Shown: positions 14,914-50,263 of the stretch, in pieces
Layout of the letters: each line of letters starts with the position of its first letter
How positions within the stretch are numbered: position 1 is the stretch's first letter
DNA from: Cymodocea nodosa
Lineage: Eukaryota; Streptophyta; Magnoliopsida; Alismatales; Cymodoceaceae
Length of the DNA: 64,000 nucleotides
Direction of reading: 5' to 3'
Assembly: GCA_036874045.1 (NCBI GenBank)
Contig: CM072345.1
Coordinates: 1,637,501-1,701,500 of the forward strand
Notes under the pieces: generated by a model
Databases searched by the model: none
What the model was told of the DNA's origin: nothing
Seen by the model: only the letters and a program-made list of their open reading frames with translations
Translations under genes and position numbers: made by a program

Positions 14914-14957
14914 GTATGTAATTAATTTTCTGCTATTTCACTTTATGTTAAGAGTTT

Positions 14958-22945: not shown

Positions 22946-22969
22946 ACCATATTATCCTACACTATTTTT

Positions 22970-23445
22970 TAGAAGATAGGACATGTAGATGAATTAGAAA
23001 GGAAAGTCTACCAAGCTACTTATGTTGTGATGGCTGGTATTAATATTAACTAGGCAAAAGTGGTAATTACTTAGATTTCTCATCTGCAAAGTTTTCTATT
23101 CTATGGAGACTATATTTTCCATCTAATGGCCAAATATTTTGACCTATTGGGAAAACCTTTGAAACTTGTTAAGAGAAAATCTCTGAAATTGAGTGATCTT
23201 CAGAGAATGTCTTCAATAGATCCTGTAGAAGTCCCTACACCTTTTCAACCCACTGAGCATTAGAGTCCTCCTCTAGCATCATCTCCACCTACACTAGAAC
23301 CTACATTTTCTTCAGTTTACAGCTTAATAACTCTCTTGCATCAAAATGAGCTACTACTTCAGTACAATCAAATACTCTTGGGTCAAGTTGCTCATTTGGA
23401 ACAACTCTTAAGAGAGGGATGCAATTATTTGAGATTTACTACATA
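22970..23445 (+). pseudogene. Putative plant transposon protein-like ORF fragment
   Basis: The translation runs from ELERKVYQATYVVMAGININ through FLFYGDYIFHLMAKYF to a Pro/Ser-rich stretch and a C-terminal leucine-rich coil (LLHQNELLLQYNQILL) ending at TAA. The FLFYGD...HLMAKYFDL part resembles the C-terminus of the PTTP domain of family F ORF1. Stops near the start and in the middle break it. It is followed at ~140 bp by a Sirevirus-like polypurine tract, so it is probably the accessory ORF at the 3' end of a Sirevirus-like element. Confidence 0.5.
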
Positions 23446-23587
23446 AAATGTCATTTGAAAAATAGTTTTGTAATCCATTTGATTTTCTTCTTCTATCAAA
23501 TGTATACACATTCTTCTTAAATTGAAATAAAATCTTACTTTCCACATTTATGTTTGTCTCTTTCTATCTACTCTACACTTTTTAATT

Positions 23588-24066
23588 ATGACAAAGGGGG
23601 AGAATATTTATGTTAAATGTTTTGTCATCATCAAAAAGGGAAAGATTATTAGTTAATTATTTACAGTTTTAATTTTGATGATGAAAAATTGAGTACTTAA
23701 TATGAGATCAAATGTTTTCAGCACTTATACTATTAAAATTGAAATTACCTAACTGTTTTATATTCAGTAAACCTTTGAAAATAAGTTTCAAAATATTTCA
23801 ATTCTACTTAGGTATATTATCGGAGAGTTACACTAGAAGTCACCGAAGATCTAGGTAAATCAAATAGTTTACCTTTCACTCTTATATTCGAAGAGTTTCC
23901 TTTGAAAATATTTAACTATCAATGAGTTTCAATATTTCTACGTTCAGACTATTTTTATCTCTAAGTATCTGAAATGTCTTCTATTTTCGAAAAGTTTCAA
24001 TTTTATGTTTCGAACAGTTTAGTTTTTAAATGTTTTAAACATATTTCGTTTACTATTTCCAAAAGG
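23588..24066 (+). repeat. Sirevirus-like polypurine tract and partial 3' LTR
   Basis: GACAAAGGGGGAGAATAT (about 23590) and CATCATCAAAAAGGGAAAG (about 23623) are the tandem purine tracts that precede Sirevirus 3' LTRs. What follows (ATTAGTTAATT, then TTTTGATGATGAAAAATTG) is the LTR head. It runs about 420 bp and then meets an oppositely oriented LTR. Confidence 0.55.
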
Positions 24067-24069
24067 ACA

Positions 24070-25504
24070 CATGTCATGCGTTAGATCGAGAGGCACACTA
24101 GAGAGGGGGGGTGAATGGTGTGTGTGTATAATTTTAACTTCCTTTTAACTTAATCGATTGATTCAATTTATCTGTGATCTTAATTAATCAATGCACATAT
24201 AAAACAGTGAAAAGTAATGAACATAGAGATTTTTAGGTGGTTCACCAACTTGGCTAGTCCACCCTCAAGATTCACTTGGACTTCACTAAGTATATAAATA
24301 CTTACAACACTTGCTTTCGGGTTGAAGCAAGAAGCAACACTTGACCTTTCAGGTTAAAGCTCAGCAACCAACCTTTCTTCGAGCTTTCAAGTACAAGCTC
24401 TTAACCAATAGAGAGTTTTCAGGTAGAAACTCACAAACCAACACTTTAAACTTTGAAGCAGAGTTTTAGCGTAGGGAGCCTTTGTGTTGTAGTGAACTTT
24501 GAGAGTATTCCTGTATTCTACAGACTTGAGAGTATATCTGGAATTTTTTGAGTAGCTCATAGTATGTGATAATCGTTGTCATAATCTTCCCTATACTTCT
24601 CATATTTATACCAAGAAGTATAACGATCATATTTACTTCCAACGGATGTTTTCTGCTATACTTACTATGTAGTCAATCTCAAAAATAGTAAGTTACCATT
24701 CTGTATACTGTCTAGTATGTAACCTTTCGATTCCCTTTGATTTTCAGATGGTTAGCTGTGAACTCTCTGAAGAACAACCATAATTCACCGAAAATCCACT
24801 TAAGTCCTTTTGTCTATGTCACATGGGATTTTAAGTCACACACGTGAAGAGTCTTAAGTTCAGATGGTTATGGATGTTAACCTATCGAAAATCTTCAACT
24901 TTCAGATAGTTAGCTACAATAGCCTCCCAAATCCTCTTTTAAGCTTCCGACTGCTATCTTCTTATTTCTACACGTGCAAAATATAGTGACTTAAGTTTCG
25001 AATAATTAAATTTGTAACCTTCCGAAACCTCTTGTTTTTTAAATAGTTAACTTTCTAACTCTCTGAAAAATCATTTTAAGCATCTGTTCTAGATTTCTGC
25101 ACGTGGGAAATTTAATGACTTAAGTTTCGGATAGTTAGCCTTTCTAACTTTCCGATTTCGTTGAACTTCCAGATAGTTAGCACCTTAACTCTCCGATCAT
25201 TCAGCAAAGTATCTTTAAAACCCTCCGAAGGCCTTGTATTTTCGGATAGTTAATTTTCCAACCGTCCGATGGTATTTCTGTTGCTTAACACTAACTCATC
25301 AGATACTTAAACCTGGTAACTCATCGAAAATTTATCTCTTCTAGATAGTTAAGTCTGGTAACCTTCCAATTTTTTGTTTATCTCTTGCAACTTCTGAATC
25401 GACTTATCTACCTTCTGCTCTTTTTCTAAACTATCTAATCTATGAAATACAATTTGCTTCCTCACATAGGTTTTTGCATTATCAAAATACAAGAGTCCTA
25501 ACAA
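24070..25504 (-). repeat. Sirevirus/Copia-like LTR (about 1.4 kb), minus
   Basis: The minus strand starts TGTTAGGACTCTTGTATTTT at 25504 and ends through CACCCCCCCTCTCTAGTG near 24090. A polypurine tract (revcomp of ATCTCCCCTTTTTTGATAA, 25505-25523) lies just outside its start, so this is the 3' LTR of a minus-oriented element. It has dense GGATAGTTA / TAACTATCC words between 24740 and 25360. Confidence 0.65.
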
Positions 25505-25754
25505 TCTCCCCTTTTTTGATAATGACAAAATCCTTTACATTTAATTACATGTATTTCACTCCCTAGTTTATTTCTATACATTCTGTCACACAGAAAACAA
25601 GTAAAACAAATTGTACACAAAAATATCTCCCCTTGTCTATGTGCTAGGATTTTTCCCCCCGCCTTCCATATAATTTCTCTTTATACTTCTCTTAATCTAC
25701 ACAATGCCATGTAATTTCTTGTTATCCTTCTCCCCCTTTTTGTCATTAGTGAAA
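25505..25754. other. Short core between two inverted Sirevirus-like LTRs
   Basis: About 250 bp separating the minus LTR from a plus LTR fragment. Purine tracts appear as TCTCCCC-type runs at both ends (25506 and 25730: TCTCCCCCTTTTTGTCATTA). No coding sequence. Confidence 0.5.
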
Positions 25755-26455
25755 GAACCTCTAGATTTTGATAATGCAAAAATCAATGTGAGGAATCAAA
25801 TTGTATTTCTCAGGCTTAACAGTAAGCAAGAGAGCAGAAGTTGATATAGACAGTTCAAAGTGTGCTGCAAGTGATAAAAATGATTTCGGAAGATTACCAG
25901 GCTTACCTATCTGGAAGAGAAATATTTTCAGTGAGTTAATAGTCTAAGTATCTGAAAGGTAGTATAAAGTAGTAGCAACACTATCAGACAATTAGAAGAT
26001 TAAGTATCTGAAAGTAGAAGGCTTTCGGAGAGTTAGAAAGATGGATGTATGAAGAATCGGAAAGTTACTGTAGCTAACTATCCGAAACTTAAGTCATTGA
26101 ATTTCCCACGTGTAGAAATCCAAACAGAAGCTTAAAAGAAGAATCAGAAAGTTACTAGAGCTAACTATCTAAAAATTGAAGAGTTTCAGTGAGTTACAGG
26201 TATAACCATCTAGAACTTAAGTTAGTCTATTATGCACGTGCTGAATTAAATAAAGCAGTCGAAAACTTAACAAAGGATTTCAGAGGGTTACTATACCTAA
26301 CTATCAGCTAGTTAAATAATAGTTCGGTCAGTTACAACTACAAGTATCCGATTAAATGACAACTCTTTTGCACGATCTAAAATCCTACATGGCAAAAAGA
26401 CTTAAGTGACTTTTCGATAAGTTACAAGTATTTTTCGGAGAGTTACATGGCTAAG
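25755..26455 (+). repeat. Sirevirus-like LTR fragment, plus, inverted to its neighbour
   Basis: From CTAGATTTTGATAATGCAAA onward this repeats the head of the LTR at 24070-25504 in opposite orientation (the phrase ATGTGAGGAATCAAATTGTA is shared with few changes). It is rich in GGATAGTTA/TAACTATCC-type words and is cut at 26455 by the start of copy B. Confidence 0.6.
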
Positions 26456-28524
26456 TGTTTAGAATGAAAAAGTGCATAATATTAACGGTTAAATGATGGT
26501 TAATTGCATAATATTTAGCTTATCATATGAGAATTAAGCCATTATGTTATAATTGCACTGTTATAAGCTTTAATTAAAGAATCTGCTTAATTTCATGGAA
26601 TTAATGTAAATTTAGTACATTTTTGAACTATCGGTAAATTGTAGGTTGTGAAATTCTTAAGTATCCGAATTTTCTGTTATTTCAGACAGTTATGTTTAAC
26701 ATACCAAACATGTACCGGACAGTTATGTTTAAATTGCCGAACAGTTATGTTTTAAAAGAATATTTTATTATTTCCTAAAGTACACGTGTCGAAACCATAA
26801 TGCATCACTTAAGTGAACTTTCGGTGAGTTATCTCTAACTATCCGAAATTGCAGTTGGGCATCAGATAGTTATATGTGTAATTCTCCGAAATCTCCTTTT
26901 ATTTATAAAATAGCTGTGGACACGTGTCATGTTCTGGGAGAATGACTTAAGTGGATTTTCGGTCAGTTATCTCTAACTATCCGAAATGCATCTGAGCATC
27001 GGATAGTAAAGTCTGTAAGTATCCGAAATGCACCTGAGCATCGGATAGTTAAATTTATGCACGTGTTTTATAGTTAAATCAACGAAGCAAGTCCGTTGAG
27101 TTATCTGTAACTCCACGGACTATTTATTTTCTAATATGCCATTGTAGCGGTTGTAGAAATAGGATAGTTGGAAGGAAAAAAACCACGATTGCACGTATTG
27201 TGTAGGGAGAAGAAATCATCGTCGTTGATATGAATGAAGGAAATCCAATCGACCATTCAAGCAGAAGCAGTTACCACTAAAGAAATATAAAAGAAAAGAA
27301 GAAAAAGAAGTAAAGTGTGTGTGATCGATGGGTGTGGCCATTGTGTGTAGAGGAGGATCACCAAGCTTTCTACAAGCAGCGTCAGCAATTCTCTAAAGTA
27401 CCACATCAACCATTATCACCACCACCATAATCACCAACCATTGGAGGTCTGTGAGGATACTTTCTTGATGTCGGGTCGATTCCAAGCCAAACACAATGCC
27501 TGACAACCACTGTGAGGAGTGATCACGTCGCGGGAAGGGAAGCCATTTTCACCAAGTGCCAACTCATATTTCAGGAAATCGTAAAGCTTCTAGCCTTGGT
27601 TTCGGGTTGATACCTGTATGCTAAAGAGGAGATCATCTTGCAATTCTGGACTCACAATTCTATAAGGAGAGGAGACAAAATTGTAAGTGGTTTAATTTTC
27701 AATGGTGTAATCACGTCGCATGTAATGACAGAAGTATTTACTATCGACTGAGATTACTTTACATTTCACCTTTTGCCCATTTCCAAGCTCATATCAAAAC
27801 AAAAATACCAAAAACAACTTATCTGTGTTTATATTTTGTATTTGAGTGTTGTATTGTTTGTGTTGTATCGTGATTAATGTTATCTTTGTCAGTGTTGTGA
27901 TTGTTTTATGTTTGTTTTAGTTTTACAGTTTACTGAAATTGGTTCGTTCAAAAGACTTAAAGATTTTAATGGTTATTGTTTGAATTATCTGAATGTTAGT
28001 ATAGCCTAATGATAAATCTAGTGTTTACTAACATTAAAGAACTTAATTGATGTTATTTACAATCTGTGAAACTGCCCAATGGTTGCCCAAATTCCTTTGT
28101 AAATAGTAGTATTAAATAGGAAAGGCAAGCTCGTGGAGTTAACTTAAGTCCACGAGGTTAGTCCGTTGAGTTAGCCATAATTCAACGAACTTTATCCATT
28201 GAGTTAACTATAACTCAACGGAGGGCTTAATGAATATATAAATTTGATTGTTAAAAACGGAACAGTTCTCAATTCTTAAGCAATTCCCTATGGGATTGAC
28301 CTCTACTTGCACACTAATACAATAGACACTGTGCACTTGCAGTTAAAATACAAATTTGAATTAATATCTAATTTGTGTGAAAGGTTGTTTGTTTACTTCT
28401 AAAAAAGGAATAGGCATAAAGATAAATTAACTAAGTAAAAATAGAAGTTAACAAATTAAAGTTTTACTGGTGCGTTGTTGGAGATCCAAACAAGTTTTCT
28501 GGTGTCGTGCTAGGTAACCAAACA
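26456..28524 (+). repeat. Copy B 5' LTR (2,069 bp)
   Basis: It begins TGTTTAGAATG and ends GGTAACCAAACA. A candidate TATA box (TATAAAAG) is at 27286-27293, about two-fifths into the LTR. U3 holds palindrome pairs such as TTTCGGTGAGTTATC with TAACTATCCGAAA (26818-26850). GTTGAGTTA-type pairs lie at 27070-27120 and 28130-28225. The last ~70 bp contain two PBS-like repeats of about 33 bp. Confidence 0.88.
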
Positions 28525-28531
28525 AGTTTTA

Positions 28532-28549
28532 TGGTGCCATTGCCAGGGA
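28532..28549 (+). other. Copy B primer-binding site
   Basis: TGGTGCCATTGCCAGGGA, seven bases after the LTR, differs at a few positions from the TGGCGCCGTTGCCGGGGA site of Athila/Tat elements. It is the third in a row of similar repeats, the first two of which lie within the LTR. Confidence 0.72.
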
Positions 28550-28626
28550 ATTTATACAAGCAACTGTTAGAGCTGTTTTGTTTTAATAGCCAAAGTGTTG
28601 TGTGTTTTCTTCTCTAATTGAGAATA

Positions 28627-28740
28627 TGGCATATGCTTATGCTCAAAGATTTCTGAAACCTGTAGTTAGCATATGTGAATTTTACAATTCTGAAGGTCAC
28701 GACATTTCTAACTGTTTTAAACTAAGACGTTTGTAGATAG
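28627..28740 (+). pseudogene. Copy B zinc-knuckle mini-ORF, one base deleted
   Basis: ATG at 28627, about 77 nt after the PBS, starts MAYAYAQRFLKPVVSICEF, the same N-terminus as the intact 34-aa ORF of the left copy. A one-base deletion just after CEF removes the second Cys codon and shifts the frame; downstream, HDISNC and LRRL are present in the other frame, closed by TAG at about 28734. That TAG is shared with the left copy. Confidence 0.6.
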
Positions 28741-28745
28741 CTAGA

Positions 28746-31700
28746 TCCCATGAACAACAAATGAATTATCCTCAATATAATAGAGCCAAGTATGAGAATC
28801 CTATAGTTTACCCAACTGATGGTCAGTATAGAATGTGTAATATGTTGAGAGACATAGAAGTTTGGGATAGGTATGATAGATTGGAGCGTAGTATAGAGCA
28901 AAACCTGGACAAACTAGAATACTTTATGTGTCACCAACAAGAAGTCAACTAATTAAACTATAAGGAAGCATATTCAGAACCTAAAATGGATATAATTTAC
29001 GAAACTTAAAAAATCATAATGAAAATTGATCAAAAATTAAATGCAATGAGATTAGATGATTTGGAAAGAAAACTAAAAGCATTAGACAAATATACAATGA
29101 AAATACAAGTTATGCAACAAGACAATGGAAATTATAATGTTATAGATCTGCATAATTTGCAAAATATACAGCCAAAAGAAAATATTAATACAAGAGAATT
29201 TAAAGAATGCACTTTAAAACTAAAAACAATTGAAGATCATAATCACGAAAATGATATACAAAAACATCATGAGAGTAACGAAAATCTGGAAGATGTATGT
29301 GTAACATTAAGATCTGGAACTGATATACCACCAAGAACTCAAAATGAAACTAATATGAAGGTGGATAAGAGTAAAAATCAAAATGATAATGAAAATGTAA
29401 TAGCTGAAAATCTAGAAATCAATGAAGAACAATCTGAATATGCTAATGAGGCTAAAAATGATCAAACAAATCAAACAAAAGAAAAAGAATCTTTTAAATC
29501 AAAATCTTTAGTACCCTATCCTAAAATATTACAACAAATAATACCTAGAAAATAAGAAAAAATTAGAGAAATTTTTGAAAAAGTACAAGTTAACATTCCT
29601 TTGTTAGATCTATTGCAAAAAATGACACCTTGTGCTAAATTTCTGAAGGATTGGTCTACTAAGAAAAGAGAGTGAAAAGTTTTTAGAAATGTCTTTTTAG
29701 TTGAGCAAAGTAGTTCCCTATTTCTGTCACAAATTCCTAAAAAGTTATCTGATCCTGGAATCCCTGTTATATCATGCATCATAGGAAATACCATTCTAGA
29801 AAGTACATTAATAGACTTAGGTGCAGGTATAAATGTTATGCCAAGTGATATATTTGCATCCTTAGGATTAAAAGGCTTAACTCCTATTAGTACAATTATT
29901 CAATTAGCTGATAGAAGTATAAGATACCCTAGAGGAAAAATAGAGGATGTCTTAATTAAAATCAAAAACTTTATATATCCTATTGATATTGTAATTTTGG
30001 ATTCCCAACAAATTAAGCATAAAAATAGAGATACATCTTTAATTTTGGGAAGGCCATTTTTAGCAACATAAAGGGCTGTTATAAATTGTAAAAGTGGAGT
30101 AATGAAGTTAGCATATGGTAATGAGGATACTCAACTAAATATTTTCAAACTAGAAAGGTTTGAGGAGTTAGAAATGTCCTTACATACCATAGACTTTTTA
30201 GAGGATGAAGGAGATATGTTAGATGATGTGATTCAAGAAGAATTAAATAGGCAAATCAATTCTGAAACTTTAGAGGAAAGTGAAAGCATAAATATAGAAG
30301 GAGATCTGGAAGAAATTAATGTAGAAAATGATGATGTTCAATTAGGAGCTCCAGCTTCTGATGGGCAACATTTAGAATTAAAACCTTTACCTCCTGAATT
30401 AACCTATATATTTCTGGAAGAGAAATTAACCTGTCCAATCATTATTGCTTCAGATTTAAAAGATGATCAAATAGCTAAATTAAAAGATGTAGTAAAAAGT
30501 TATAAAGAAGCAATAGGATGGACTATGACTGATATAAAAGGGTTAAGTTCAACTTTATGCTGTCACTACATATATTTAGAAGAGAATGCTAAACCTGTTA
30601 GAATTCCTGAGAGGAGATTGAATCCAAATCTTAAAGAAGTAATCAGGAAGGAAATAGTGAAATGGTTAGATAATGACATAATTTATCCGATTTCTGATAG
30701 CTCGTGGGTTAACCCAATCCATGTAGTTCCCAAGAAATCAGAATTAACAGTTATTAGGAATGAAAGTCAAGACTTGATACCTACTAGAATTCAATCAAGC
30801 TAGAGAGTATGTATACACTATAGAAAGCTGAATGTTGTGACTAGGAAAGATCATTTTCCCCTACCTTTTATAGATCAAATGCTGGAAAGATTAGTAGGGG
30901 AAGAATAATTTTGTTTCCTAGACGGGTATTCAGGTTATAATCAAATTCCAGTAGCATTAGAGGATCAAGAGAAAATAACTTTCACCTGTCCTAATGGAAC
31001 TTATGCTTTTAAGAGAATGCCATTCGAATTATGCAATGCACCAGCTACCTTTCAAAGGTGTATGCAAGGCATATTTACTAGAATGACTGAAGATTTTTTA
31101 GAAATATTTATGGATGATTTTACTATATATGGCAACTCATATGAAGTTTGTTTAACCAATTTAGACCAAATATTAAAACGTTGTGTCGAAAAAAATTTGG
31201 TTTTAAATTTGGAAAAATGTCACTTCATGGTTAAACAAGGAATAGTCTTAGGGCATGTTGTTTCAAAGAAAGGGTTAGAAGTAGATAAAGCTAAAATAAA
31301 AGTAATTTCTAATCTACCAGAACCTAAATCAGTAAAAGATATTAGATTATTTCTAGGACATGTTGGTTTTTATAGAAGATTTATTAAAGACTTTAGCAAA
31401 ATAGCTAGACCTTTAACTAATCTATTAAAAAATGTCCAATTTAACTTTGATAAAAATTGCAAGGAAGCATTTTTCAAACTTAAAACTAGCTTAATTTCAA
31501 CTCCTATAATTCAAGCACCTAATTGGAGCCATCCATTTGAATTAATGTGTGATGCATCTGATTTTGCTGTAGGAGCAGTGTTGGTACAGAAGATAGAAAA
31601 ATCTCCTAGAGTGATTCATTATGCAAGCAAAACCTTAAATGATGCTCAAGTTAATTACACAACTACTGAAAAAGAACTATTAGCTGTTGTGTTTGCCTTA

Positions 31701-33272
31701 GAAAAGTTTAGATCATATCTGATTGGAGCTAAAGTAATAGTATACACGGATCATGCAGCTTTAAAACATCTAATAGCAAAAAAAGAGACTAAGCCTAGAT
31801 TGATCTGATGGATATTATTATTACAAGAATTTAATCTAGAAATTAAAGATAAAAGAGGTTGTGAGAATGTAGTAGTAGATCATTTATCAAGATTACAAAT
31901 AGAAAAATCAAATATTGAAATTAAGGATAATTTTCTTGATGATCAATTAATGACCATCAACACAATACCTTGGTATGCAGACATAGTTAATTACTTAGTT
32001 ACTAGTTTAACACCTAAGGATTGGAATAGACAGGATAAGAAATTATTTTTCTCAAGAGTAAAATATTACTATTGGGAAGACCCATACCTATTTAAGAAAT
32101 GTCTTGATTTGATTTTAAGGAGGTGTGTTTCAAAAACTGAATATCAGAGCATATTGTCTTTCTATTATGACCAAGCTTGTGGAAGGCATTTTGGCTTAGG
32201 GAAAACTGCTGCAAAAATTCTGCGATGTGGGTTTTATTGGCCAACACTATTCAAAGATGCTCATAAATATTGCTTAAGTTGTTTAAGATGTCAACAAATA
32301 GGAAGAATATCAAAGAGGAATATGACGTCTCTTAATCCTATTATTGAGGTTGAAATCTTTGATGTGTGGGGAATAGATTTTATGGGTCCATTTCCTATGT
32401 CTAATCAATTTACTTATATATTGTTGGGTGTGGACTATGTATCTAAATGGATAGAATTTATTCCTACAAAAACTAATGACAACAAAGTGGTAATACAATT
32501 TATAAGAACCAATCTATTTGCCAGATTTGGAATACCTAAAGCTATTATCAGTGATAGAGGAACTCATTTTTGTAATAGAAGTTTTGAAGCCTTAATAAAG
32601 AAATATGAAGTAAACCACAAAATTGCAACATCATATCATCCGCAAATAAGTGGACAAGTAGAAAGTGCTAACAAACAAATTAAGTTAATCTTAGAAAAAG
32701 TAGTAAATCCTAATAGAATAGATTGGGCTAATAGATTGATAGATGCACTTTGGGCTTATAGAACTACTTATAAGGCAAGCTTAGGTATGTCACCTTTTAG
32801 GCTAGTATATGGAAAAAGTTGTCATTTACTAGTTGAAATAGAACATAAAGCTTATTGGGCATTAAAAACTCTGAACACTAATTTAAATCAAACTTCTGAA
32901 AATAGGAAAATGCAATTAATTGAATTAGAAGAATTTAGAAATGAAGCTTACTCGAAGACTGTAAGAGAAAATGAGAAAATGAAATTCTAGCATGATAGGA
33001 AAACTATTCCAAAAAGTTTTGAAAAAGGACAAGAAGTATATCTTTACATGGCTAGACTCCATAACCATCTAGGAAAATTAAGATCTAGATGGACAGGACC
33101 TTACATAGTTTGAAATATTTATCCTTATGGAGCTATTGAGATTAAAAATCCTAAAAATCAAAATATCTTTAAAGTAAATGGACAAAGACCTAAACCTATT
33201 CTAAAAATACCAAAAAATTCTTTTCAAATTATAGAAGAAGTCAGAGTAGAGGACTACTCGAGCTTTACTTAG
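28746..33272 (+). pseudogene. Copy B protease-RT-RNase H-integrase polyprotein
   Basis: One frame from ~28746 to TAG at 33270, about 1,500 codons, broken only by nonsense codons (about ten). In order: a charged linker; an Asn/Glu-rich stretch; retropepsin with DLGAGINVM (about 29815) and LILGRPFLAT (about 30040); RT with [24 protein letters not shown] and the catalytic box FMDDF (about 31109); RNase H with [11 protein letters not shown] (about 31546) and [10 protein letters not shown] (about 31743); and integrase with a zinc-binding region (about 32160-32310, where the first His appears as Tyr), the D-D-E core at [10 protein letters not shown] (about 32370), ISDRGTHF (about 32548) and GQVESANKQ (about 32654), then a GPY module (RSRWTGPYIV, about 33085). 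It would copy and insert the element. No capsid domain precedes it, unlike normal Ty3/gypsy elements. Confidence 0.92.
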
Positions 33273-33850
33273 TAAGAAATCAGTTTTTATTTTATTTTTA
33301 TAAAAAATATATATATATATAAATAAATAAATAAAAATTTAAATTATTATTATAAAATATAAAAAATCGTTGTGGTTCAACCGATTGGATCCATTGGTAT
33401 GACCGGAACATAAAAGAATCTATATTAATTTTCAGTAAAAAAAATTTTGGTTTAACCGAAACATATTACCGATTCAACTAGGAAAAAATGTCGGTCTGAC
33501 CGAAACATAGTATCGGTTAAACCGGTAAAACAGAAAAAAAAACTATTATCTTAAGTTTTTTTTTTTATATATATCTGTTTGTACGGGAAGTCCGTTGAGT
33601 TACGCTTAACTCAACAAACTTACTCCGTTGAGTCTTGAGTTAGTCAATGAGCTTATTCCGTTAAATTAGTACTGTAGCTAAGACCACGGATGAGAGAGCA
33701 AGAGTTGGTTTGGGAAATGACCCGATTAACCGCCTAAACTTAGGGCTTATTTAGACTAAAACCTAGGGTTTTGGGGGCATTATCTAGTAGATCATTTAGA
33801 ACTTAGAACAGAAAGATCAGAGCGACTTCGTGTTGTTGTGTAACTCCACG
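33273..33850 (+). repeat. Copy B spacer between integrase and ORF1, two palindrome classes
   Basis: This is non-coding. It starts with an AT-rich simple repeat (33305-33340), then four to five CGGTYTGACCGAAACAT-type self-complementary words (33365-33530), then GTTGAGTTA / TAACTCAAC words (33592-33665). The layout is as in copy A. Confidence 0.75.
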
Positions 33851-36087
33851 ATGAGGAAGATGACACCCGAGTTCTGGGAAGATGCAATTGACACAACACA
33901 ATTTCTGAAAGAGTTAGAGGAATGGCACACGAGGCAGAAGATTCGGAATACGACAAGAGAAAAAGAGCTACAAAATGTAGAATCAAAACTCTTCAACTTG
34001 AGAAAATTTTTAGTTGATTTGGGTATACAAATACCCTAGATAGTAGAAACAAAAATCAAAGTAGCAACAGAAATTGCTTTAAGAAAAGAAAGAAAAATCA
34101 AGCCGAACAATGAAGTAGCCCTAGAGCTAATCCAGCACAAAGCCAGATTATGGTTCAAAAAGCACATTGCTGGTCGTGCAAGGGGTGCAATAAGGCGACA
34201 GCAACAAGTAGAGAAAGAACAAGAGGAGCCGACTACTGAAAGACCTATTCTTGAGGAACAACAACCAGGACCTTCAGTTCCACCATTTAAGCCGTTGGCA
34301 TAAATAGCAATGTTGGGGCCTTCGACTGAAGAAGAATTAAAAAAATTTCAAGGACTGGTTCAAGTTGGGAAAAACCAAGGAGAACTAGAAGATTTAGTAG
34401 TAGCCAAAGCACATCTAGTGTTTAATGCACTTCGCAAGAGGAGGGCTATAGAAAAGTTGAAAGTCCAATACAAAATCAAAGTAGAACAGCATCAAGAAGC
34501 TACTACCAAAACTGTTGTCAGATTTGCTGCAAGAGGAAAAGCTGAAGCTGGTCCCTCGAGACCAGCAAAAATTGAAAAAATTAATCAGGAAGAGCCAGTA
34601 CCTGTGGCTCAAAGGCGTACAGAGCCTTTGTTTATAAATTTAATCTCAGAAGTAGAAGAGAAAGACTAGGCACAATTAATCACACGAAGGAAAGGAAAAG
34701 AGATAGTGCTTGAATGTCAAAAGGAGATTAAATCTGAAGTACCAATATCAAAAGGGTCTATAGAGCCAATTTTTATAAACCTACTATCCGATTCTAAGGA
34801 GGAGCAGGAGCAACAGTAGCAAGAGCAAAGAGAAGAAGAAAATCAGGCTGAAATTAGTCTGCAGCCTGTACAAGAAGAAGAAACAGAAATTAGGGCAGAA
34901 ACTGAATTGCCCATGACTCCATCCCAATCTACTGTAGAATCAGAAAGAATAGTGACAGAGTGGATTAGTAGTCAGGAGGAAGAAGAAAGAACAGAAAATG
35001 AACAAGAGGCTGAACAAAGCCATTTGAACAAAAATGACTTTTCAGATTCCACTGAATAGCAAGAAACTCTTTAGCAATTTATGGAAAGAATTCAAGATAG
35101 AGTGGAGAGTTTTGTCGGCTCACCACCACAAACAAAAGCAGAAGCAAATGTTCAGGAATCTGCAGAACATGTTCAAGTGCAACCTATGGTAGAGGAAGAT
35201 TAAGAACAAACCCCTCTAGAACAACAAAGTCATATTCTTAACCCGATTGAAGCAACAGTTCCGAATGAAGTACATTTTTGGAGTCAGGAAGCTTATAATA
35301 AATATCAAGAGATTAGGGGTTTTGATATTATATACAGTAGACTAGTAAATTAGGACGGAATGCAAGAAATCAAAGAATTATTTGAATTCCAAGGTCTACT
35401 GAATTTTATTTCTCAAGAAAGAGGGCATGCAGTGTATGAAAATCTAGTGCCCTGCTTTTATGCAAACTTAAGAGAAGGAGAAGGAGGATTAATTTCCAAC
35501 GTGGAGGAAGCTGATGTACAGATAACACCAAAGCTTCTCCACAACATTTTTGGATTAAAGAATGAAGGAAAAGAAATTTTGGAAGACACAACTGCCGTTG
35601 AATGGATAGAGTAGGAAATCAAGGACAGTTTGGCTATCAATCCTGGTGTGCCTTTATTAAATAGATTGATGGATTTAAATGATAAAGCACACATGATAGC
35701 TAATATTTTGATTAAGAATGTCTATCAACGACAAGGCCATGACATAGAACTGAGTCAATTTGTCAAATGGGCCACATATGCAATTGTAAATAGAATTCAA
35801 ATAAATTGGTTTGTAGTTTTTATCTCCAAGTTGAGAACAATGAAGAAGAAATTGTTTTATGGAGATTTATTCCACTACTGATGGTGGACTATATTGATTT
35901 CACGAAATGGACATAAAAAAGGATCAGATCAAGAAACATTTTGGTGAAAGAGTATAGAAATTTTGTAGCTGTAAAGATTGTTGAACCTTCTGGAGGAATT
36001 ACAAGAGCTATAGAAAGGATTAACCAATTAGAGTAGCAATTAGAAAAACTCTAGAAGGAAGTAGATGAACTTAGGAATAGAGACTAA
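33851..36087 (+). pseudogene. Copy B ORF1: acidic protein with PTTP domain
   Basis: It starts MRKMTPEFWEDAIDTTQFLK and ends DELRNRD, about 745 codons. The N-terminal third is basic/coiled coil with AALELIQ-like helical stretches, the middle is Glu/Gln-rich with repeated phrases (EPLFINLISEVEEKD, EPIFINLLSDSKEEQ), and the C-terminal ~240 codons (from ~35350) are the putative plant transposon protein domain with ENLVPCFYANLRE and ITPKLLHNIFGLKNEG. ORF1 proteins of Ogre/Tat elements sit upstream of gag in the same way; their function is unknown. Several stops and a one-base deletion near 35865 break it. It follows integrase by ~580 bp. Confidence 0.78.
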
Positions 36088-36477
36088 TTGTATTGTTTGT
36101 CTACTTGTATATAACTGTATGAAAAATATCTGATTAAGTTGTACTGTAATTGATTCATATGAATGAATATATATTTTTCAGATATACTTTTCATGTGTGT
36201 TTTGAATGTGAAATGAATGGACTATACTGAATGTTATATAATTCGTGGAACATTATGCATGAATGTTTAAAAAGATTTACAGTGCTGAATGACAGGATTA
36301 AATAATAGATGCCTGAAAATATCTACATGCTACAAAGAAAAATGTAAATTCTGCATAACATGAAATTAACTACAAGTTAAATATTTATATAATGTTTATA
36401 TTTAAACGAATTTTGATTAGAATACTGTAGTAATGACATATATTTAACTTTATTTCAGTTAGTAGAGTGTAGGAAAA

Positions 36478-36514
<37 letters not shown>

Positions 36515-36792
36515 TAAAAACATAGAGGTACTTACGAAGAGTAAACTTAGAAGTTGCCAAGTGTTAACTCAACGAAGTAAGTTCATTGAGTTAAACTTAA
36601 TCCACGAGGTCAGTAATATAATATAAGGTCACTCCGTTGAGTTATCTGTAACTCAACGAAGTTAGTCCGTGGAGTTAGCAACAGTAACCGACATTATTCC
36701 GTTGAGTTATCTGTAACTCAACGAGGTTAGTTCGTGGATTAAGTAGAATAGTTATTCTTTTAACCACGAACGAAACTTTGTCAGTTTAGCAG
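36088..36792 (+). repeat. Copy B spacer between ORF1 and gag
   Basis: This is non-coding. An (AAT)n microsatellite at 36479-36512 is unique to copy B. A GTTGAGTTA / TAACTCAAC cluster fills 36560-36740 with at least three stem-forming pairs. It ends in GTTTAGCAG, a 3'-splice-site-like sequence also present in copy A. Confidence 0.75.
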
Positions 36793-37046
36793 TTACCAAA
36801 ATTTGAAATTAGTAGTGGTACACGTACCCATAAAAACAGGAACCATACTGCACATTGCAAGACACGTTCTTGCAACGAGATTTATTTACTTTATGGATGT
36901 GCATAATATATATAAAACAGAATGTTATTTACGAGTTACTAGCACTTTTAAAAGAAAGGAAAATGCGTTGGGGGAACTGGAAGGAGAACCAGCTGATTCG
37001 ACTTCATCCGTCAACAAATATTTACTGAATGAAAAGCTTCAGACTG
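36793..37046 (+). other. Copy B: candidate 254-bp exon upstream of gag
   Basis: It is open throughout, with peptide HVPIKTGTILHIARHVLATR then YKTECYLRVTSTFKRKENAL and an acidic tail ending NEKLQTG, where the next bases GTATGTAATTAA are both a stop and a strong splice-donor-like sequence. There is no ATG near the head. Copy A has exactly 254 bp between the same borders. The gag ATG follows 30 bp later in the same frame. I do not recognise the peptide. Confidence 0.42.
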
Positions 37047-37075
37047 GTATGTAATTAATCTTCTACTATTTATTT

Positions 37076-38419
37076 ATGAGCACATGGACTCATTCTCTAA
37101 GCACTAAACGATTAGTAAGAACACCTAACTAGGAATATTCAACATAGAGGCATACTGAAACATTTTCTGAATTGGACTTTAATGAAATCCTTTGGGGTGT
37201 AGCTAACCTTTCTTTAAAAGAGAACGTAGAGATGGCTGCTCCAATAGAAAAATCATTAGGAGAAATTCTGTATCCTGAATTAGTTGATGAACCTTCATAT
37301 ATTCGATTGCCAAACTTTGAGGGAGATAGGTTTGAACTGAAATCTAATTATATTAGTCAATTGCCACATTTTCATGGATTAGAAAGAGAGGATGCCTATT
37401 ATTTCCTTAGAGAATTTAACGAAGTTTGTCAAATGATGAAAATGCCGAACATGAGTATAGATGCTATTAAACTTAGATATATCCCTTTTGCTTTAAAAGA
37501 CACAGCTAAGAGATGGTTATATACTCTGTCGCCTGATTCAATTTCTACATGGACTGAATTTTACTCTGTTTTTCTGGAAAAATATTATCCAACACATCAA
37601 ATGATTAAAAAGAAAAAAGAAATATTAATGTGTAGCCAAAAATAAGGTGAATCATTTTGAAAATATTTTGAAAGATTTAAAGATTTACTAACTAAATGTC
37701 CACATCATGCAATAAGTAAAGCACAATTAATAGGTATAATTTATGAAGGCATAGATATTTCAACAAAATCTTTATTAGAATCTACTTGTCAAAATGGATT
37801 TCTAAAACTATGTAGTGAAGAAGCATGGGCATATTTAGAAAACTTTGCAAAAAGAACTGCATAGTGGGAAAAATCGGCTGAAACTATTGTAGATAAAAAA
37901 ATATTGCCAAGAGGAATACATGAAATAGATTCAATTACTATGCTTGAGGTGAAATTAACTGAATTAACAAAGAAAATAGAAGAGTTATCATTAAATCAAA
38001 AGCTAGTAGAAAAGAATGCAAACATAAATGATCTAGATATTATTTATGCTAGAAACCAAAAAGATAACTTTGGAAATTCTTATAATCCTAATTGGAGAAA
38101 TCACCCGAATTTATCTTGGAAAAACAACAATTTCTAGGGAGGAGAAAATGTAAATGAGAAGAATATAAGTTATGAAGCATTACTTGAACAAGGATCTAGA
38201 ATAGAGAAATTAAAAAAGATAATCCAACAATTAAACAATCGTTTAAATTTTGTATTTGGAAATACTGCAAACCAAAATATAAATAGAAATATACCCCTTA
38301 GGTAGAAGGAATCAATGGAAGTTAAAACTACTGGAGGATTGCCAATACAAGTAGTACCTAACCTTGTCAATAGAATTGTTAATAAAATTGATACCTCCTC
38401 TAGGAGGATAGCTAAATGA
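37076..38419 (+). pseudogene. Copy B gag (capsid-type) gene, downstream of integrase
   Basis: One frame of 447 codons, ATG at 37076 to TGA at 38417. The retrotransposon gag domain has LPNFEGDRFELKSNYISQLP, FHGLEREDAYYFLREFNEV and AKRWLYTLSPDSISTWTEF; a coiled coil (TELTKKIEELSLNQKL) and NPNWRNHPNLSWKNN follow, then a C-terminal coil (IEKLKKIIQQLNNRL). There is no zinc knuckle. Seven nonsense codons and no frameshift: TAG at 37130, 37145, 37862, 38135 and 38303, TAA at 37643, TGA at 37658. In copy C each of these positions reads Gln or Trp. It would form the particle shell. Its place, after ORF1 and before the F-box gene, agrees with copies A and C. Confidence 0.88.
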
Positions 38420-38607
38420 AGCAGTATAACTGAAGTAACTATATATGTATATATAAGTTTATTTATAGTTAATAGCATCGTAGAGTTAGTCCTTAACTCA
38501 ACAAACTTAGTCCGTTGAGTTATGCCCTAACTCCACGAGGGTGTGCAGTAGTTATGTTAATTTTTGTCTCCGCTAAAAATTTTGTTTGTGTTATACAGAA
38601 TCAGCAA
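38420..38607 (+). repeat. Copy B spacer between gag and F-box
   Basis: It contains CTTAACTCAACAAAC / GTCCGTTGAGTTATG as an inverted pair (38491-38523) and ends in TTATACAG, splice-acceptor-like, ten bases before the F-box ATG. Confidence 0.65.
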
Positions 38608-39744
38608 ATGGAATTGATGCAATTACCGTTGGATGCACTAAGGGAAGTACTAAGTAACTTGTTAGCTAAAGATCTATGCAAGCTGTGTTGTGTATCAAAG
38701 GAAATTAAAGACAGTGTTGGAGAAAAATATTTTCATAGACTACAAGTTGCAAAAATGACTAAGATTAGATATGGATTCATATGGAAGTCATTTAATTGTA
38801 GTTCAATTACCCATGAATATCTAAATATGGAAGAAACTACTGGAATTCCACCCAATACATTAGAAGGAATAGATCATATTATGGGGATGGATGAAGAATT
38901 AATTATATACAGGACCAGACTAAGGTATGCAAGTCTATTACCTGATATTTTGATAAGAAATCCTATCACAAGAGAAGAATGGAATATAGGAAGACCTAAT
39001 AGATATGAAGTACCAACTATAAATTGTGGGTCGGCTTTAATATTTTCTGATAAAAATTCAACCATTCCTGAAAAATTAGATTATTGGAGACCTATAGGAA
39101 ATTGGGATGAAGATTTATGCTAAAGTGTGTATAATTTTCTGAATAGATCTTGGACTGAAAATACTATGATATATCTAGGATAGAAATCATTAATTAACAG
39201 CATGCATGTCATAGTTGATGGATATATTTATCCAGTCACAGATATATCAGTTGCATTTAGATCTGATTTATACATAGTAAGCATAGATAGTTATGATGAA
39301 TATATAGAAATTTTGCCTATACCGAGAGAAATAGCTAAACCACCGTCTATAGAATTTGATAAAATTCAAATAGGGATGTGGTATAATGAATATGATGATC
39401 CTACTTTATGTCTGATAAGATGGTGGGATGAATTGATGAAATTTCAAATATGGATTATGAAAGACATCAATGAATGGAATTGGGAAGAGGAATATATTGA
39501 AATAGATGTAGAAATAGAAACTGCTACATTATCCTGGAACCGAAAAGGATCCCTTTCTGCATTTCATTTCATTAATGGTAATACACTTGTACTTAGCATT
39601 GATAATATACTACAAGTTTACAAATTAAGAAGGAACACGAACTGCATTAAAATAAAATTAATAGCAAGAAGAATTATGCCTAAAAAGTTTGCTTGGACTG
39701 ACACGTTTATTCCATTTATTTCTACTTTTCAATCACGTTCTTAA
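38608..39744 (+). pseudogene. Copy B: captured F-box gene (378 codons)
   Basis: A single frame from ATG (38608) to TAA (39742), the best-preserved of the three copies. The N-terminus MELMQLPLDALREVLSNLLA, followed by KDLCKLCCVSKEIKD, is a canonical F-box at residues ~5-45, which binds Skp1 in SCF ubiquitin ligases. The rest resembles plant F-box-associated regions: ILIRNPITREEWNIGRPNR near residue 125, SVYNFLNRSW near 175, LCLIRWWDELMKFQIWIMKD near 265. Only two internal stops occur: TAA at ~39121 and TAG at ~39181 (CAG in copy A). No intron interrupts it. It sits within the element between gag and the internal polypurine tract, so it amplified with the element. The source host gene and target are unknown. 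Confidence 0.85.
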
Positions 39745-41107
39745 GCTGTGATTTTGTGTGTTTAATGTTGTGTGTATTCTACATTTATTTTTAGAAAAAA
39801 AGAAACAATTTAGTTTTAATTTTATTTTATAAAAAGAAGAAAACAAAACAAAATATCAATCCAATTTGTTGGTATCTATTCTGAGAAACCAACTGGCTTG
39901 CTTGTGAGCCACCAAAGGCATAGGAGCTTGGGTTCCACACAAGACAATGATTTATAAATATTTGTTAAATGTTATTTTGTTATATATTCTGCTTTTATCT
40001 GTGAATGAAAAGTTTTATAGAATCAAAAATCAAAATATGTAGAAGGAGATACAATTGAAACAAGGTATATAATTGATTACTTATCCTAAATTTAGATTTA
40101 AACTCATTCGTTGAGTTAGGTGCTAAATCAACGAAACTGTATTCATGCCTGCTACAATTAATGTATTTATTGTCAAATCTTTTACATTGAGGACAATGCA
40201 AAATGTAGGTATGGGGGGGAGGTAATTAAAGTAACAGCCATGTAATGGTACTGCAAAGTTTTGTGGAAATTGAAAATTTTTTTTATGAACTTGCTGTAAC
40301 TATTCGATAATTGAGACTATAAAATTTTTATAAACTGTAACTACTTGAATGTTATATTTAGAGGCTATATAAGATGCTATAGAATTTACTATTTATGAAA
40401 ATCTAGATATAGTATCTTATGTTTTATTTTCTGAATTTCATGAGTTTAACAGTTTCATGATTTTAAAATGAAATCAGAATGCTTAATGAAAAATCAGTAA
40501 ATTATCTGAAGTCCTGAAAGAGCTGAGATGTGAATTCTAGATTAAATGAAACACATATGATTAAAGATACATTTAATTTGACTGATTAAACTTGTAGAAT
40601 GATTTATGTGTAGATCTTATTAAACTACATAAAAAGTATGAGCTTATTATTATGGATTCATATTTTCAATAAATGATAGAAGCAGGACTATATGAGATTG
40701 GTGTTTATTGCATCTGTATTAATGAAATACATACATATACAGTATGGGATTAATGTTTTTAATTTTGTAATAAAAAAAGAGAGAGAAAAAAAAAAACTTT
40801 GAGAGTTTATTTACTTGTTTGATCACGAGCCTTTTGTATTTGAGCAGATAGGTATGTAAGGATTGTTGACCTGAAAAAAGACTCTTGAAATCTGGCAACC
40901 TAAGATCCTAATTAGATTTGGGATTGTTGACTGAAAGCTCATTATATGGGTACATTAGAAAGCTCTTGTATGATTCAAGCTTGTCAAATTAACTTTTAAA
41001 ATACAAAAATACATATACTGTTCTGAAAAGATACAAGTGTTTTGTGAAATACAGATATCTTATGAATCGAGTATATTTTCTGTTATCTAGAATTGCTGAA
41101 ATATGAA
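39745..41107 (+). other. Copy B 3' tail with internal polypurine tract
   Basis: This is non-coding. It contains the conserved block 39868-39952, a GTTGAGTTA word near 40110, CATTGAGGACAATG (40185) and the internal polypurine tract ATGGGGGGGAGG (40211-40222). Similarity to the tail of copies A and C continues to about 41107, where the last part, the terminal polypurine tract and the LTR head are missing. Confidence 0.7.
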
Positions 41108-41570
41108 TCTAGAAACCATAATGCATGACTTAAGTGAACTTTCGGTGAGTTATCTCTAACTATCCGAAATTGCAGTTGGGCATCGGATAGTTATATGTGT
41201 AACTCTCCGAAATCTCCTTTTATTTATAAAATAGTTGTGGACACGTGTCATGTTCTAGGAGAATGACTTAAGTGGATTTTAAGTCAGTTATTTCTAACTA
41301 TCTGAAATGCATCTAAGCATCAGATAGTTAGAATTGTAACTCTCTGAAATGTTTCTTTTATTATAAAACTGCTGATGACATGTGTTGTGATCTGGTAGAT
41401 TTACTTAAGTTATATATCGGTGAGTTATTTGTAACTATCCAAAATACATTTGAGCATCAGATAGTTAAGTCTGTAAGTATCTGAAATGCACCTGAGCATC
41501 GGATAGTTAAATTTATGCACGTGTTTTATAGTTAAATCAACGAAGCAAGTCCGTTGAGTTATCTGTAACT
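41108..41570 (+). repeat. Copy B 3' LTR remnant
   Basis: It starts abruptly at AAACCATAATGCATGACTTA, equal to ~26787 of the 5' LTR, and follows LTR order to GTCCGTTGAGTTATCTGTAA (about 41550). The LTR head, and everything after ~27115, are deleted. It is rich in GGATAGTTA-type words. Confidence 0.75.
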
Positions 41571-41862: not shown

Positions 41863-42429
41863 ATTAGATAAAAGAAGACTTCTGATATCTGTAATGTTCG
41901 ATATCTGATATCTGATAAAAGGAGACTGCTGATAAGTCCTGCATGATTACATGTTAGCAGAAAACATGCTCCCATATGGTGAGCTTGAGGGATAATAATC
42001 ATAAACCAAATATGAATGCATTATAAATCATGCAAAGAACATATGCCTAGATTTCTTCTAATATTATTAAATGTTGATTCATTTAGAGGTTTTATGAAAA
42101 TATCTACAAGTTGATTTTATGTTGGAACAAACTTGAGTGAGATGTGCCTTTTTTCCACATGATCTTTCAAGAAATGATGTTTGATCTCAATATACTTGGC
42201 TCTAGAATGAAGTACTGTACTCTTAGATAAGCTTATTGCACTGTTGTTATCACAAAATATATCTATATTATGAATTTTCAGTCTATAATCTGCTAAAGTT
42301 TGCTGCATCCATAAAATTTGAGCATAACATAGACCTATGTATAGATGATATTTGTGCACATTTTTATATGATAATTCATGCATTCTATGTCTTGAAACTC
42401 AAGTTATATGCACTTATACCAGAAAATAC
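41863..42429 (-). pseudogene. Copia-type RNase H C-terminal fragment
   Basis: On the minus strand from ~42400 to ~42015: LCYAQILWMQQTLADYRLKI, IFCDNNSAISLSKS and KYIEIKHHFLKDHVEK, then, after one stop, QLVDIFIKPL, the classical end of Ty1/copia RNase H (usually QLADIFTKPL). RNase H removes the RNA template during reverse transcription. RT, integrase and gag are absent. Orientation is opposite to the LTR end at 41571-41862, so the two are not from one intact element. Confidence 0.8.
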
Positions 42430-44121: not shown

Positions 44122-44140
44122 TTGACGTCGTTGCCGAGGA
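44122..44140 (+). other. Element D primer-binding site
   Basis: TTGACGTCGTTGCCGAGGA begins six bases after the LTR end and is close to the tRNA-Asp-type site of Athila elements. Confidence 0.75.
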
Positions 44141-45033: not shown

Positions 45034-48000
45034 ATGGATAGTAATTTTAATTACCATAGTTCATATGATGCTTCATTTATGGTATTTTGTGCTAAATGTG
45101 GTTTAAATGATCATATTCTTAAGGATTGTCCTTTTTATATGTTAGATGATGATTTTAAAGAGTATAAGCATCCTGATTTATCCATATCAGAATATGAGAA
45201 TTTGAATGTACAAGCATTGCATGCTAAATTTCCTGCTGATAATGTTGCCAATGCCAATTTTTATGATGTTATTACTATTGATGATGATAATGATGGTTAT
45301 AGTGCTAATGTTAAGCTCAATAGAGCTATTGAAGAGGCTGAATTAGCTTTTCTGAACTTAGAGTTAGCAAGATGCTCTAATGAACACCTTAAGCCTAAAG
45401 CCCAAGTAGAGGAAAAGGTGGATGCCTTTGCAACTCTAAGAAGTGGTAAAGAGTGTATAAATTCTAAGGTTGTTATAGAGCCATCTTCTAGTTCTATTAG
45501 CAATCCTAAGTCGGTGGTGATAGAGGATAAAGGTAAAGAGGTCTTAGATGATATATCTAGTCCCTTAGACAATGTAACTCCATTTCCCCAAAGGCTTAAG
45601 GATACTAGCAATAACCACATAGAAGGAGGTATTAAAGAAATTTTTGAGCAAGTAAGGATTAACATTCCACTATTAGATGCAATCCAACAGATTCCCTCCT
45701 ATGCTAAATTTCTAAAAGAATTATGTACAAGGAAAAGGTCTAGGAAATTGCCTAAGAAAGTTTATTTAGCTAAAGTTATGAGTTCTTATTTTTCTGATAG
45801 CATTCCTAGAAAATATGGAGATCCTGGTACACCAACCATTTCTTGTACAATAGGAAACAAGTATTTTGACAAGGCCTTAATAGACTTAGGAGCTGGGGTT
45901 AATGTCATGACTTCTAGTGTTTATGTGGACTTAGGATTAGATGGATTAAAGTCGACTAGCATTTTTATCCAATTAGCTGATAAGTCCATAAGAACCCCCT
46001 TAGGCATAATAGAAAATCTATTAATTAAAATTAAAGACTTTATCTACCCTATAGATTTTATAGTTTTAGAAAATCAACCATCACATGGAAAGAAAGATTT
46101 TGTCCCTTTGATTTTAGGACGACCATTTTTAGCGACATCTGATGCTGTGATAGGTTGTAGAGATGGATCATTGCATATTTCATGTGGTGATTCTAGGGTA
46201 GAGTTAAACATTTTTAGTTCCGAGTCTAGTACCTCAAATGACAAAGTAAGTGTAAATTTAATAGAGATTTTAGAAGATAATATTTTAGATGAAGACTCTA
46301 CATTAGATGACATTGTAGAAAATTCTTTATTAGAGTTTTTAGATTCTATAGAAGATGTGGTCAGTATAGATAGTATTCACAATGTAGATTTAGTATGGTC
46401 TAATGAATCAATAGGAGATAAGCTAGAAAATATTTTGAAACCATCAATTATAGAACCACTTGTACTAGAATTAAAACCTCTACCTAAAAATCTTAAATAT
46501 GTTTATTTAGGAGACAATGAGACTCTCCCTATTATCATTTCTACTAAGTTATCTAGTGATCAGGAGAGGGCTTTATTAGTGGTTCTAAAAAGACATAAGG
46601 AGGCCATAGGATGGACCATGGCCGATATTAAAGGATTAAGTCCTAGTATAACTCAACATAGAATTAGGGTGGACCCTAATATAATTCCTACTAGAGACTT
46701 TCAAAGAAGATTAAACCCTGCCATGAAGGAGGTAGTTAAAAAAGAAATTCTTAAGTGGCTTGACCATGATATCATTTATCCTATTTCTGATAGTCCATGG
46801 GTCAGTCCCCTTCATGTAGTACCCAAGAAATCAGGAATAACCGTAGTTGAAAATAGTTAGAAAGAATTAATACCTACTAGATTGCAAACTGGGTGGCGTG
46901 TGTGTGTGGATTATGGGAAGTTAAATGCTGCCACTTGGAAGGATCATTTTCCTTTTCCTTTTGTAAATCAAATGTTAGAAAGATTAGCAGGGCAAGAATT
47001 TAATTACTTTCTAGACGGTTATTCTGGGTACAATCAGATTCCCGTAGCTCCTGAGGATCAAGAGAAGAGTACATTCACTTGTCCTTTTGGTACATTTGCA
47101 TTCAAACGCATGTTGTTTGGTTTATGCAACGCACTGACGACCTTCTAGAGATGCATGACAGGTGTCTTCTCTAATATGATTGATAGATTCTTAGAGATCT
47201 TCATGGATGATCTTTCAGTCTATGGGGATTCTTTTGATTCTTGTTTGTCTCACTTGGAGACAGTTTTGATTAGACGCAGGGAGAAACACTTCATTCTGAA
47301 CTGGGAGAAATGTCATTTCATGGTTCAGAAAGGAGTTGTTTTAGGACATATAGTGCCTAAGCAAGGTTTGGAAGTAGATCAAGCCAAAATAGATGTTATT
47401 TTAGGTCTACCATTCCCTCAAAATATTAAGGATGTTAGAGCATTCCTTGGGCATGCAGGTTTTTATAGAAGGTTTATTAAAGACTTTAGTAAAATTACCC
47501 AACCTTTGACACAGTTGTTGACTAAGGACCATAAATTTGAATTCACATTAGAATGTAGAAAGGCCTTTGATCAACTTAAGCTTGCATTGTCGCCTGCACC
47601 TATTATCCATCCTCCGCGATGGGATTTGCCTTTTGAGCTAATGTGTGATGCATCAGATTTTGCATTAGGTGTAGCTTTAGGACAACGTATAGATAGCTTG
47701 CCTCGAGTAGTTTACTATGCTAGCAAAACTTTAAATCATGCCCAATTGAACTATACAGTGATAGAGAAAGAATTTCTAGCCGTAGTTTATGCATTAGAGA
47801 AATTTAGACCATATTTGCTAGGTTCTCATGTTATAGTATATACTGACCATTCTACAATTAAGTATCTTCTTGCTAAGAAGGATGCGAAAGCACATCTTAT
47901 TAGATGGGTCCTTCTGTTGCAAGAATTTGATATAGAGATTAGAAATAAGAAAGGATGTGAAAATGTTGTAGTAGACCACTTGTCTAGAATAGTTATACCA

Positions 48001-50258: not shown

Positions 50259-50263
50259 ACGTT
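50259..50263 (+). other. Target site duplication ACGTT, left
   Basis: These five bases before TGTTTGC (left end of copy C) are repeated at 62261-62265 after TCTAAACA (right end). A 5-bp duplication is the norm for Ty3/gypsy integrases. Confidence 0.85.

Follow-up and report, generated by a model that had tools for sequence, protein, structure and literature searches.

The 64,000 nt stretch of Cymodocea nodosa DNA considered here (contig CM072345.1, positions 1,637,501 to 1,701,500 of GenBank assembly GCA_036874045.1; referred to below as the window) carries long terminal repeat (LTR) retrotransposons in which pol comes first and gag last. We consider it probable that they represent a decayed, Athila-derived Ty3/gypsy lineage in which this order had a single origin and the genes would have been expressed from separate RNAs. 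Four pieces, A, B, C and D, belong to one family, as judged by self-comparison, Pfam, a scan for primer-binding sites (PBSs) and tblastn with a classical gag-pol protein. A second, related family, E, which was absent from the first-pass annotation of this DNA, is also present. In both families, represented by B and E, the pol open reading frame (ORF) is the first gene that can be recognised behind the LTR and PBS, and gag is found only after integrase (in B, after ORF1). Every copy in the window is decayed, and gene order, copies and boundaries were read within the window only. Coordinates are collected in the table.

Order of pol and gag

An intact classical gag-pol ORF of 2004 residues (L001), found in a scan of prokaryote assemblies, served as yardstick. 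Its layout is capsid, knuckle (residue 363), LPSQPISNP (534), LRSG (569), protease, reverse transcriptase (RT) and integrase (IN). L001 and L002 are very similar Athila-type contigs, each with one open gag-pol frame, in two bacterial assemblies (CPCC strains), and are presumably plant contamination.

In tblastn searches, the L001 protein is permuted, pol and then gag, in all three elements with both halves present (B, A and E). In B, residues 668–1992 match at 29358–33251 and residues 86–419 at 37223–38119. The corresponding matches in A are residues 1823–1979 at 10867–11337 and 108–344 at 15174–15868. In E, into whose gag gene copy C is inserted, residues 713–1973 match at 45580–49290, 102–286 at 49712–50255 and 290–547 at 62267–62917. 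D and C each hold one half, D as LTR-PBS-pol and C as a unit with gag that is bounded by a target-site duplication (TSD). The order reported for Ty3/gypsy elements in a survey of plant LTR lineages is GAG-PROT-RT-RH-INT (PMC6317226), RH being RNase H, and it was found in none of the three elements with both parts. The first-pass annotation had taken gag before pol as the normal order of the Athila and Tat/Ogre clades, which fits that survey, and had placed gag and ORF1 downstream of integrase, as is confirmed in A and B. The IN-ORF1 junction is shared by A (11.4–11.9 kb) and B, with 44/75 to 70/84 aligned bases of the spacer identical per 100-column block.

In B and D, only 75–76 nt separate the PBS from the pol ATG, and no other ATG lies between them, which leaves no space for gag. 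No match to gag was found in the 893 nt leader of E with 121 query proteins, while a control, the gag of E, was matched. The sole match in that leader (E-value 0.07, from residues 567–601 of P0032) was rejected as a gag remnant. No description of gag after integrase in an LTR retrotransposon was found among the literature matches (titles and abstract openings, partly the best 15 of 96 and the best 15 of 100; subscription journals are mostly outside the coverage).

In E, gag has retained a CCHC knuckle of its own (CVGCGALGHVIETC) and stops shortly after LPSSTIPNP. The gag of C ends soon after LPMQAVPNP, and that of B and C has no knuckle of its own. An LP....NP signature precedes LRSG or LRNG in 42 of the 59 database rows that have at least 60 residues before this motif, and by eye all of the other 17 except P0013 have either a coiled coil like that of Gag or a variant form of this signature. 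The pol genes of E, D and B start with Met, a CCHC-type knuckle (first Cys at residue 15–19) and a linker to LRSG, the linker being lost in D; the knuckle is intact in D and E, and a later Cys is changed in B. Gag thus ends in the linker, at the point where a classical gag-pol protein continues into LRSG and protease, and the N-terminal knuckle of pol is a second, separate one; this places the cut within the gag/protease linker rather than at the border of capsid and knuckle. Pol has a different front end, and the gag knuckle has been lost in family B/C and kept in E.

No database relative was found for residues 1–130 of E pol (110 candidates, none at an E-value of 10), or in the protein database for the gag piece of C (758 candidates, none at 0.001), and scans of viral contigs revealed no relatives. 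The part of E pol before residue 92 is aligned by only one of 120 rows, at the gag knuckle of that row (best 120 of 2420 matches, 8000 candidates scored).

Features of copies A to D and of family E (positions in the window; ~, approximate)
Feature	Position	Strand	Details
Copy D	6015–10670	−	tail 10670–9430, LTR ~9414–7387, PBS 7379, pol ATG 7285 with intact knuckle, cut at 6015
Copy A	10864–21471	+	IN fragment 10864–11388, ORF1, gag, F-box 16520–17665 (~16.52–17.67 kb), tail, LTR ~19516–21445, PBS 21454–21471
Copy B 5′ LTR	26456–28524	+	TG...CA; repeats in C, D and A (self-comparison)
Copy B PBS	28532–28549	+	tRNA-Asp type; 15/18 to the presumed Athila PBS
Copy B pol	28626–33272 (end ~)	+	knuckle (one Cys changed), LRSG linker, protease, RT, RH, IN; internal stops (Pfam, tblastn)
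Palindrome, IN/ORF1 boundary of B	33593–33616	+	CGTTGAGTTA..TAACTCAACG
Copy B ORF1	33850–36100 (end ~)	+	weak PF20167
Palindrome cluster, ORF1/gag boundary of B	36565–36723	+
Copy B gag	37074–38420 (ends ~)	+	PF03732; no knuckle, internal stops
Palindrome cluster, gag/F-box boundary of B	38479–38537	+
Copy B F-box gene	38608–39744	+	PF00646; two open pieces
Copy B tail	39745–41111	+	motif pair 40109–40133; 3′ end deleted
Copy B 3′ LTR fragment	41112–41570	+	459 nt (self-comparison)
E PBS	44123–44140	+	15/18; LTR expected to end just before
E pol	45034–49359	+	ATG, knuckle CX2CX4HX4C, LRSGKE, protease, RT, RH, IN; four in-frame stops
E gag, first part	49588–50258 (start ~)	+	PF03732; one frame change
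TSD of C, left	50259–50263	+
Copy C	50264–62260	−	LTR 62260–60229, ORF1, gag, F-box (54450–55420), tail, LTR 52467–50264; no pol
TSD of C, right	62261–62265	+
E gag, second part	62266–62968	+	beyond insertion C; knuckle, LPSSTIPNP, stop
E tail	62969–64000	+	no 3′ LTR recognised before the window end

Copies, accessory genes and palindromic motifs

The window consists of nested, AT-rich plant retrotransposons beside ~6 kb of GC-richer DNA (self-comparison and domain scans). Copy B had been described as running from LTR to LTR. Its gene order stands, but the copy is incomplete: deletion has removed the last part of the tail and the beginning of the 3′ LTR, no TSD was seen, and a Cys of its knuckle is changed. 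Copy A does show IN-ORF1-gag-F-box-tail-LTR as annotated, except that its supposed 3′ LTR is followed by a tRNA-Asp-type PBS, so that this LTR was formerly a 5′ LTR or part of a tandem array. The LTR of D is flanked by an element tail in front and by PBS-pol behind; the order tail-LTR-PBS-knuckle-pol proposed for this leftmost copy is upheld by self-comparison and the PBS scan.

The hallmarks of an LTR retrotransposon (an LTR pair with TG..CA ends, a polypurine tract and a TSD) were found in copy C only. Its 5 bp TSD is ACGTT, 1862 of 1994 aligned bases of its LTR pair are identical, and by eye a purine tract precedes its 3′ LTR. Its TSD-bounded layout LTR-ORF1-gag-F-box-tail-LTR is as annotated, but the 5′ LTR is short by about 180 nt at its 3′ end, the PBS and pol are gone, and copy C appears to be a deletion derivative. 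As it lacks the PBS together with the end of the 5′ LTR, it looks like a B-like element that later suffered a deletion.

With the two flanks of C joined, the gag frame of E is in phase across the site, with one in-frame stop. The gap between IN and gag in E is about 230 nt, with no ORF1 between them. E and B share 69 % DNA identity over 2.2 kb of pol, and their proteases are 55 % identical. The region 63.0–64.0 kb was rejected as a 3′ LTR of E, giving no significant match to 41.57–45.03 kb, the expected place of the 5′ LTR. Upstream of E, 42117–42398 (− strand) resembles a Copia-type RNase H fragment, by eye from its translation. At the other end of the window, positions 1–6010 are GC-rich, contain a nad1 fragment and two group II intron matches, and adjoin the cut end of D at 6015; this stretch is either a piece of mitochondrial DNA in the nuclear genome or the reverse case.

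The PF20167 matches to ORF1 are weak (18.3 bits for the B piece and 24.8 bits for C, against a cut-off of 45). The F-box gene is retained in all three copies that reach that part (A, B and C; dN/dS 0.26–0.64), and is probably a captured host gene turned standing accessory gene. Only a chance-level match to an F-box-associated domain was found in A, and comparison of the F-box piece by sequence with solved structures gave one chance match (E-value 0.99). According to a review on extra ORFs of plant LTR elements, gag and pol come next after the 5′ LTR, and the accessible part of its text does not mention an F-box (PMC7264820).

Selection was assessed as dN/dS (Nei-Gojobori, 100 bootstraps) on stop-free pieces compared between copies. 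Of the 16 comparisons that covered gag, F-box and two segments of ORF1, 15 gave values of 0.18–0.64 and one gave 0.80. For gag the values were 0.33–0.57 in A–B and A–C (second gag piece A–C 0.33, interval 0.16–0.51), for F-box 0.40–0.54 in the same pairs (second piece A–C 0.40, 0.20–0.74), and for ORF1a and ORF1b 0.18–0.33 (ORF1a A–C 0.20, 0.09–0.39). Integrase gave 0.15 in B–E, with dS near 2, and one A–B integrase piece gave 0.23 on 48 codons. These values suggest that selection acted on the genes as long as the family was mobile, and that they decayed afterwards.

The motif CGTTGAGTTA, allowing at most one mismatch, occurs 87 times in the window compared with 3–7 times in five simulated sequences, often in inverted pairs with TAACTCAACG. 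None of the 45 matches within the bodies of A, B and C is in a coding part, with coding parts set by hand at 58–75 % of the length and one match in B lying just before the ORF1 start. Clusters are present in the LTRs and, in A and B, at IN/ORF1, ORF1/gag, gag/F-box and F-box/tail. C has clusters at ORF1/gag, gag/F-box and F-box/tail, and one motif (60220) at the LTR/ORF1 junction, and E has a single isolated match (46649). The boundary stretches fold as hairpins (folding without a shuffled control), and the palindromes could be sites of promoter activity, of RNA processing or of recombination. A second motif, CGGATAGTTA, has 67 matches compared with 2–5 in simulations and is common to the LTR repeats (U3 parts) and 22550–26440, as if one hairpin-repeat family had spread over several elements.

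Kinship and alternative explanations

RT-RH identity to the nine best-scoring database rows each was 64–69 % for B and about 59–64 % for E (58–69 % overall); many of these rows are unnamed and were taken to be Athila from their look. The IN of E is 63 % identical to that of L001. No additional RNase H (aRH) was found with Pfam, only RT_RNaseH(_2) between RT and IN, and one L001 match spans RH-IN in both B and E. The PBSs match a tRNA-Asp-type 18-mer, which we take to be that of Athila, at 15/18 positions in B, E and A and 14/18 in D, all behind an LTR; as background, at least 14/18 was reached once in 20 shuffles of one strand. A PBS of the tRNA-Asp type is reported for Diaspora and Calypso (PMC1142308).

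Gag trees group E with C (support 96/97, or 98/95 with L001 added), and the protease tree groups E with B (94/93 without P0013); none of the trees contains Tat or another outgroup. The pol-gag order probably arose once, before the split of E and B. The metagenome protein P0013, in which LRSG is not preceded by the Gag C-terminal signature, groups in protease with E (and B) and may be a third pol-first member.

Several observations weigh against a pol-first lineage of single origin whose genes were under selection. No copy in the window is intact with two full LTRs, a TSD, pol and gag together, and no 3′ LTR of E was found in the window. With P0013 included, protease joins E and P0013 first (97/84) with B outside (98/89), and the protease bootstraps are not settled. 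RT-RH joins E and B weakly (54/81), and the B piece 30072–30800, upstream of the RT catalytic part, joins E in none of 200 bootstrap trees, in which the branches are long. The 11–12 classical rows in the gag trees were all found through pol. The dN/dS of ORF1c is 0.44–0.91 (A–B 0.86, A–C 0.91), the second gag piece gives 0.80 in B–C, the protease 0.96 in B–D and, over 36 codons, one A–B integrase piece 2.22; the value 1 lies within several of the intervals, and the B–E values for RT-RH and gag are inestimable, as dS is saturated. The E leader has 27 ATGs, which is awkward for simple scanning and argues for splicing or some other bypass in E. The steps of expression and packaging are inference only.

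Of the other explanations, the most plausible, though unlikely, is a bipartite system of pol-only and gag-only units (the latter like TR-GAG elements, which occur in plants) that complement one another, the composites being recombinants and the order in A, B and E functionless. It would account for C, a TSD-bounded unit with gag and without pol, and the position of the LTR of D between tail and PBS-pol, and of A between tail and PBS, shows that recombination is common here. However, the missing PBS and 5′ LTR end of C point to a later deletion, the IN-ORF1 junction is common to A and B, and E has the same order of IN and gag despite the divergence of its protease from that of B. Still less probable are independent rearrangements of B/A and E by chance local recombination with no shared ancestral architecture. 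The weak RT-RH grouping, the upstream segment that does not join the two families and the presence of ORF1 between IN and gag in B but not in E would agree with this. It conflicts with the gag and protease trees that unite E with B/C, with the knuckle and linker shared by the pol starts of E, D and B, and with the gag of both E and C stopping soon after LP....PNP.

The first-pass annotation had favoured a circular permutation that placed the LTR and PBS between capsid and knuckle and so split Gag. The knuckle in pol and its absence from the gag of B/C are as such a split would leave them, but the downstream gag of E retains its knuckle and the Gag C-terminal signature while pol has a second knuckle, and the first 130 residues of E pol are without a database relative; we regard this model as very improbable. 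A false join of two elements in the assembly at about 33.3 kb, also considered in that annotation, can practically be dismissed. Nothing beyond the repetitive nature of the region favours it, the junction recurs in A in a form diverged from B, E shows IN followed by gag separately, and the gag frame of E is preserved across the empty site of C, apart from the one in-frame stop.

Expression and comparison with known systems

For the pol-first lineage, the first ATG after the PBS in B and D, in the leader as read from the PBS on (LTR part excluded), is that of pol, and the genomic RNA is therefore probably the pol mRNA, without a Gag-Pol fusion. Gag, ORF1 and the F-box protein would be made from shorter RNAs, which splicing might yield or else internal promoters close to the boundaries that the palindromes mark. 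As there would be no Gag-Pol fusion, Pol would have to be packaged by another route, for which its own knuckle, binding the genomic RNA much as in foamy viruses (spumaretroviruses), is the obvious candidate.

A broader proposal, to which we give somewhat less than even chances, is that the lineage abandoned the Gag-Pol fusion altogether, with a genomic RNA that encodes Pol alone, downstream cistrons for capsid and accessories delimited by palindromes, Pol packaged by its own knuckle, and the captured F-box gene as a standing accessory, possibly against host silencing. Such elements may be widespread and overlooked, since classifiers expecting gag first would discard them. The plant LTR survey removed all elements with an unexpected domain order as likely mispredictions (PMC6317226), so pol-first elements would have fallen into this blind spot.

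The elements share with Athila, Calypso and Diaspora their RT-RH kinship, the order PR-RT-RH-IN (PR, protease) within pol and the tRNA-Asp-type PBS, and extra ORFs downstream of pol are also known in relatives (PMC7264820, PMC1142308). In classical members (L001 and Diaspora), gag and pol form one ORF with gag first, whereas here gag is separate and follows integrase, and the N-terminus of pol is unmatched and has a knuckle of its own. Ogre/Tat elements are similar in their gypsy-type pol, extra ORFs and large size, but Tat is distinguished by an aRH (PMC6317226), and none was found in the elements here. Copy C resembles TR-GAG elements in being LTR-bounded with gag, without pol and with a TSD, and differs in also having ORF1 and F-box and in lacking the PBS and the 5′ LTR end.

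In orthoretroviruses, the Gag-Pol fusion sets the Gag:Pol ratio. A pol-first lineage must solve both ratio and packaging otherwise, which makes the question 'why is gag first?' testable by comparison. In spumaretroviruses, gag precedes pol, and host and sequence differ from those here. In orthoretroviruses, the fusion brings the enzymes into the particle, whereas spumaretroviruses make Pol apart from Gag, from a separate spliced RNA, and package it through the genomic RNA (PMC7828637). In the elements described here, a comparable arrangement would use the genomic RNA as pol mRNA, and the likeness to spumaretroviruses would be one of working, not of membership.

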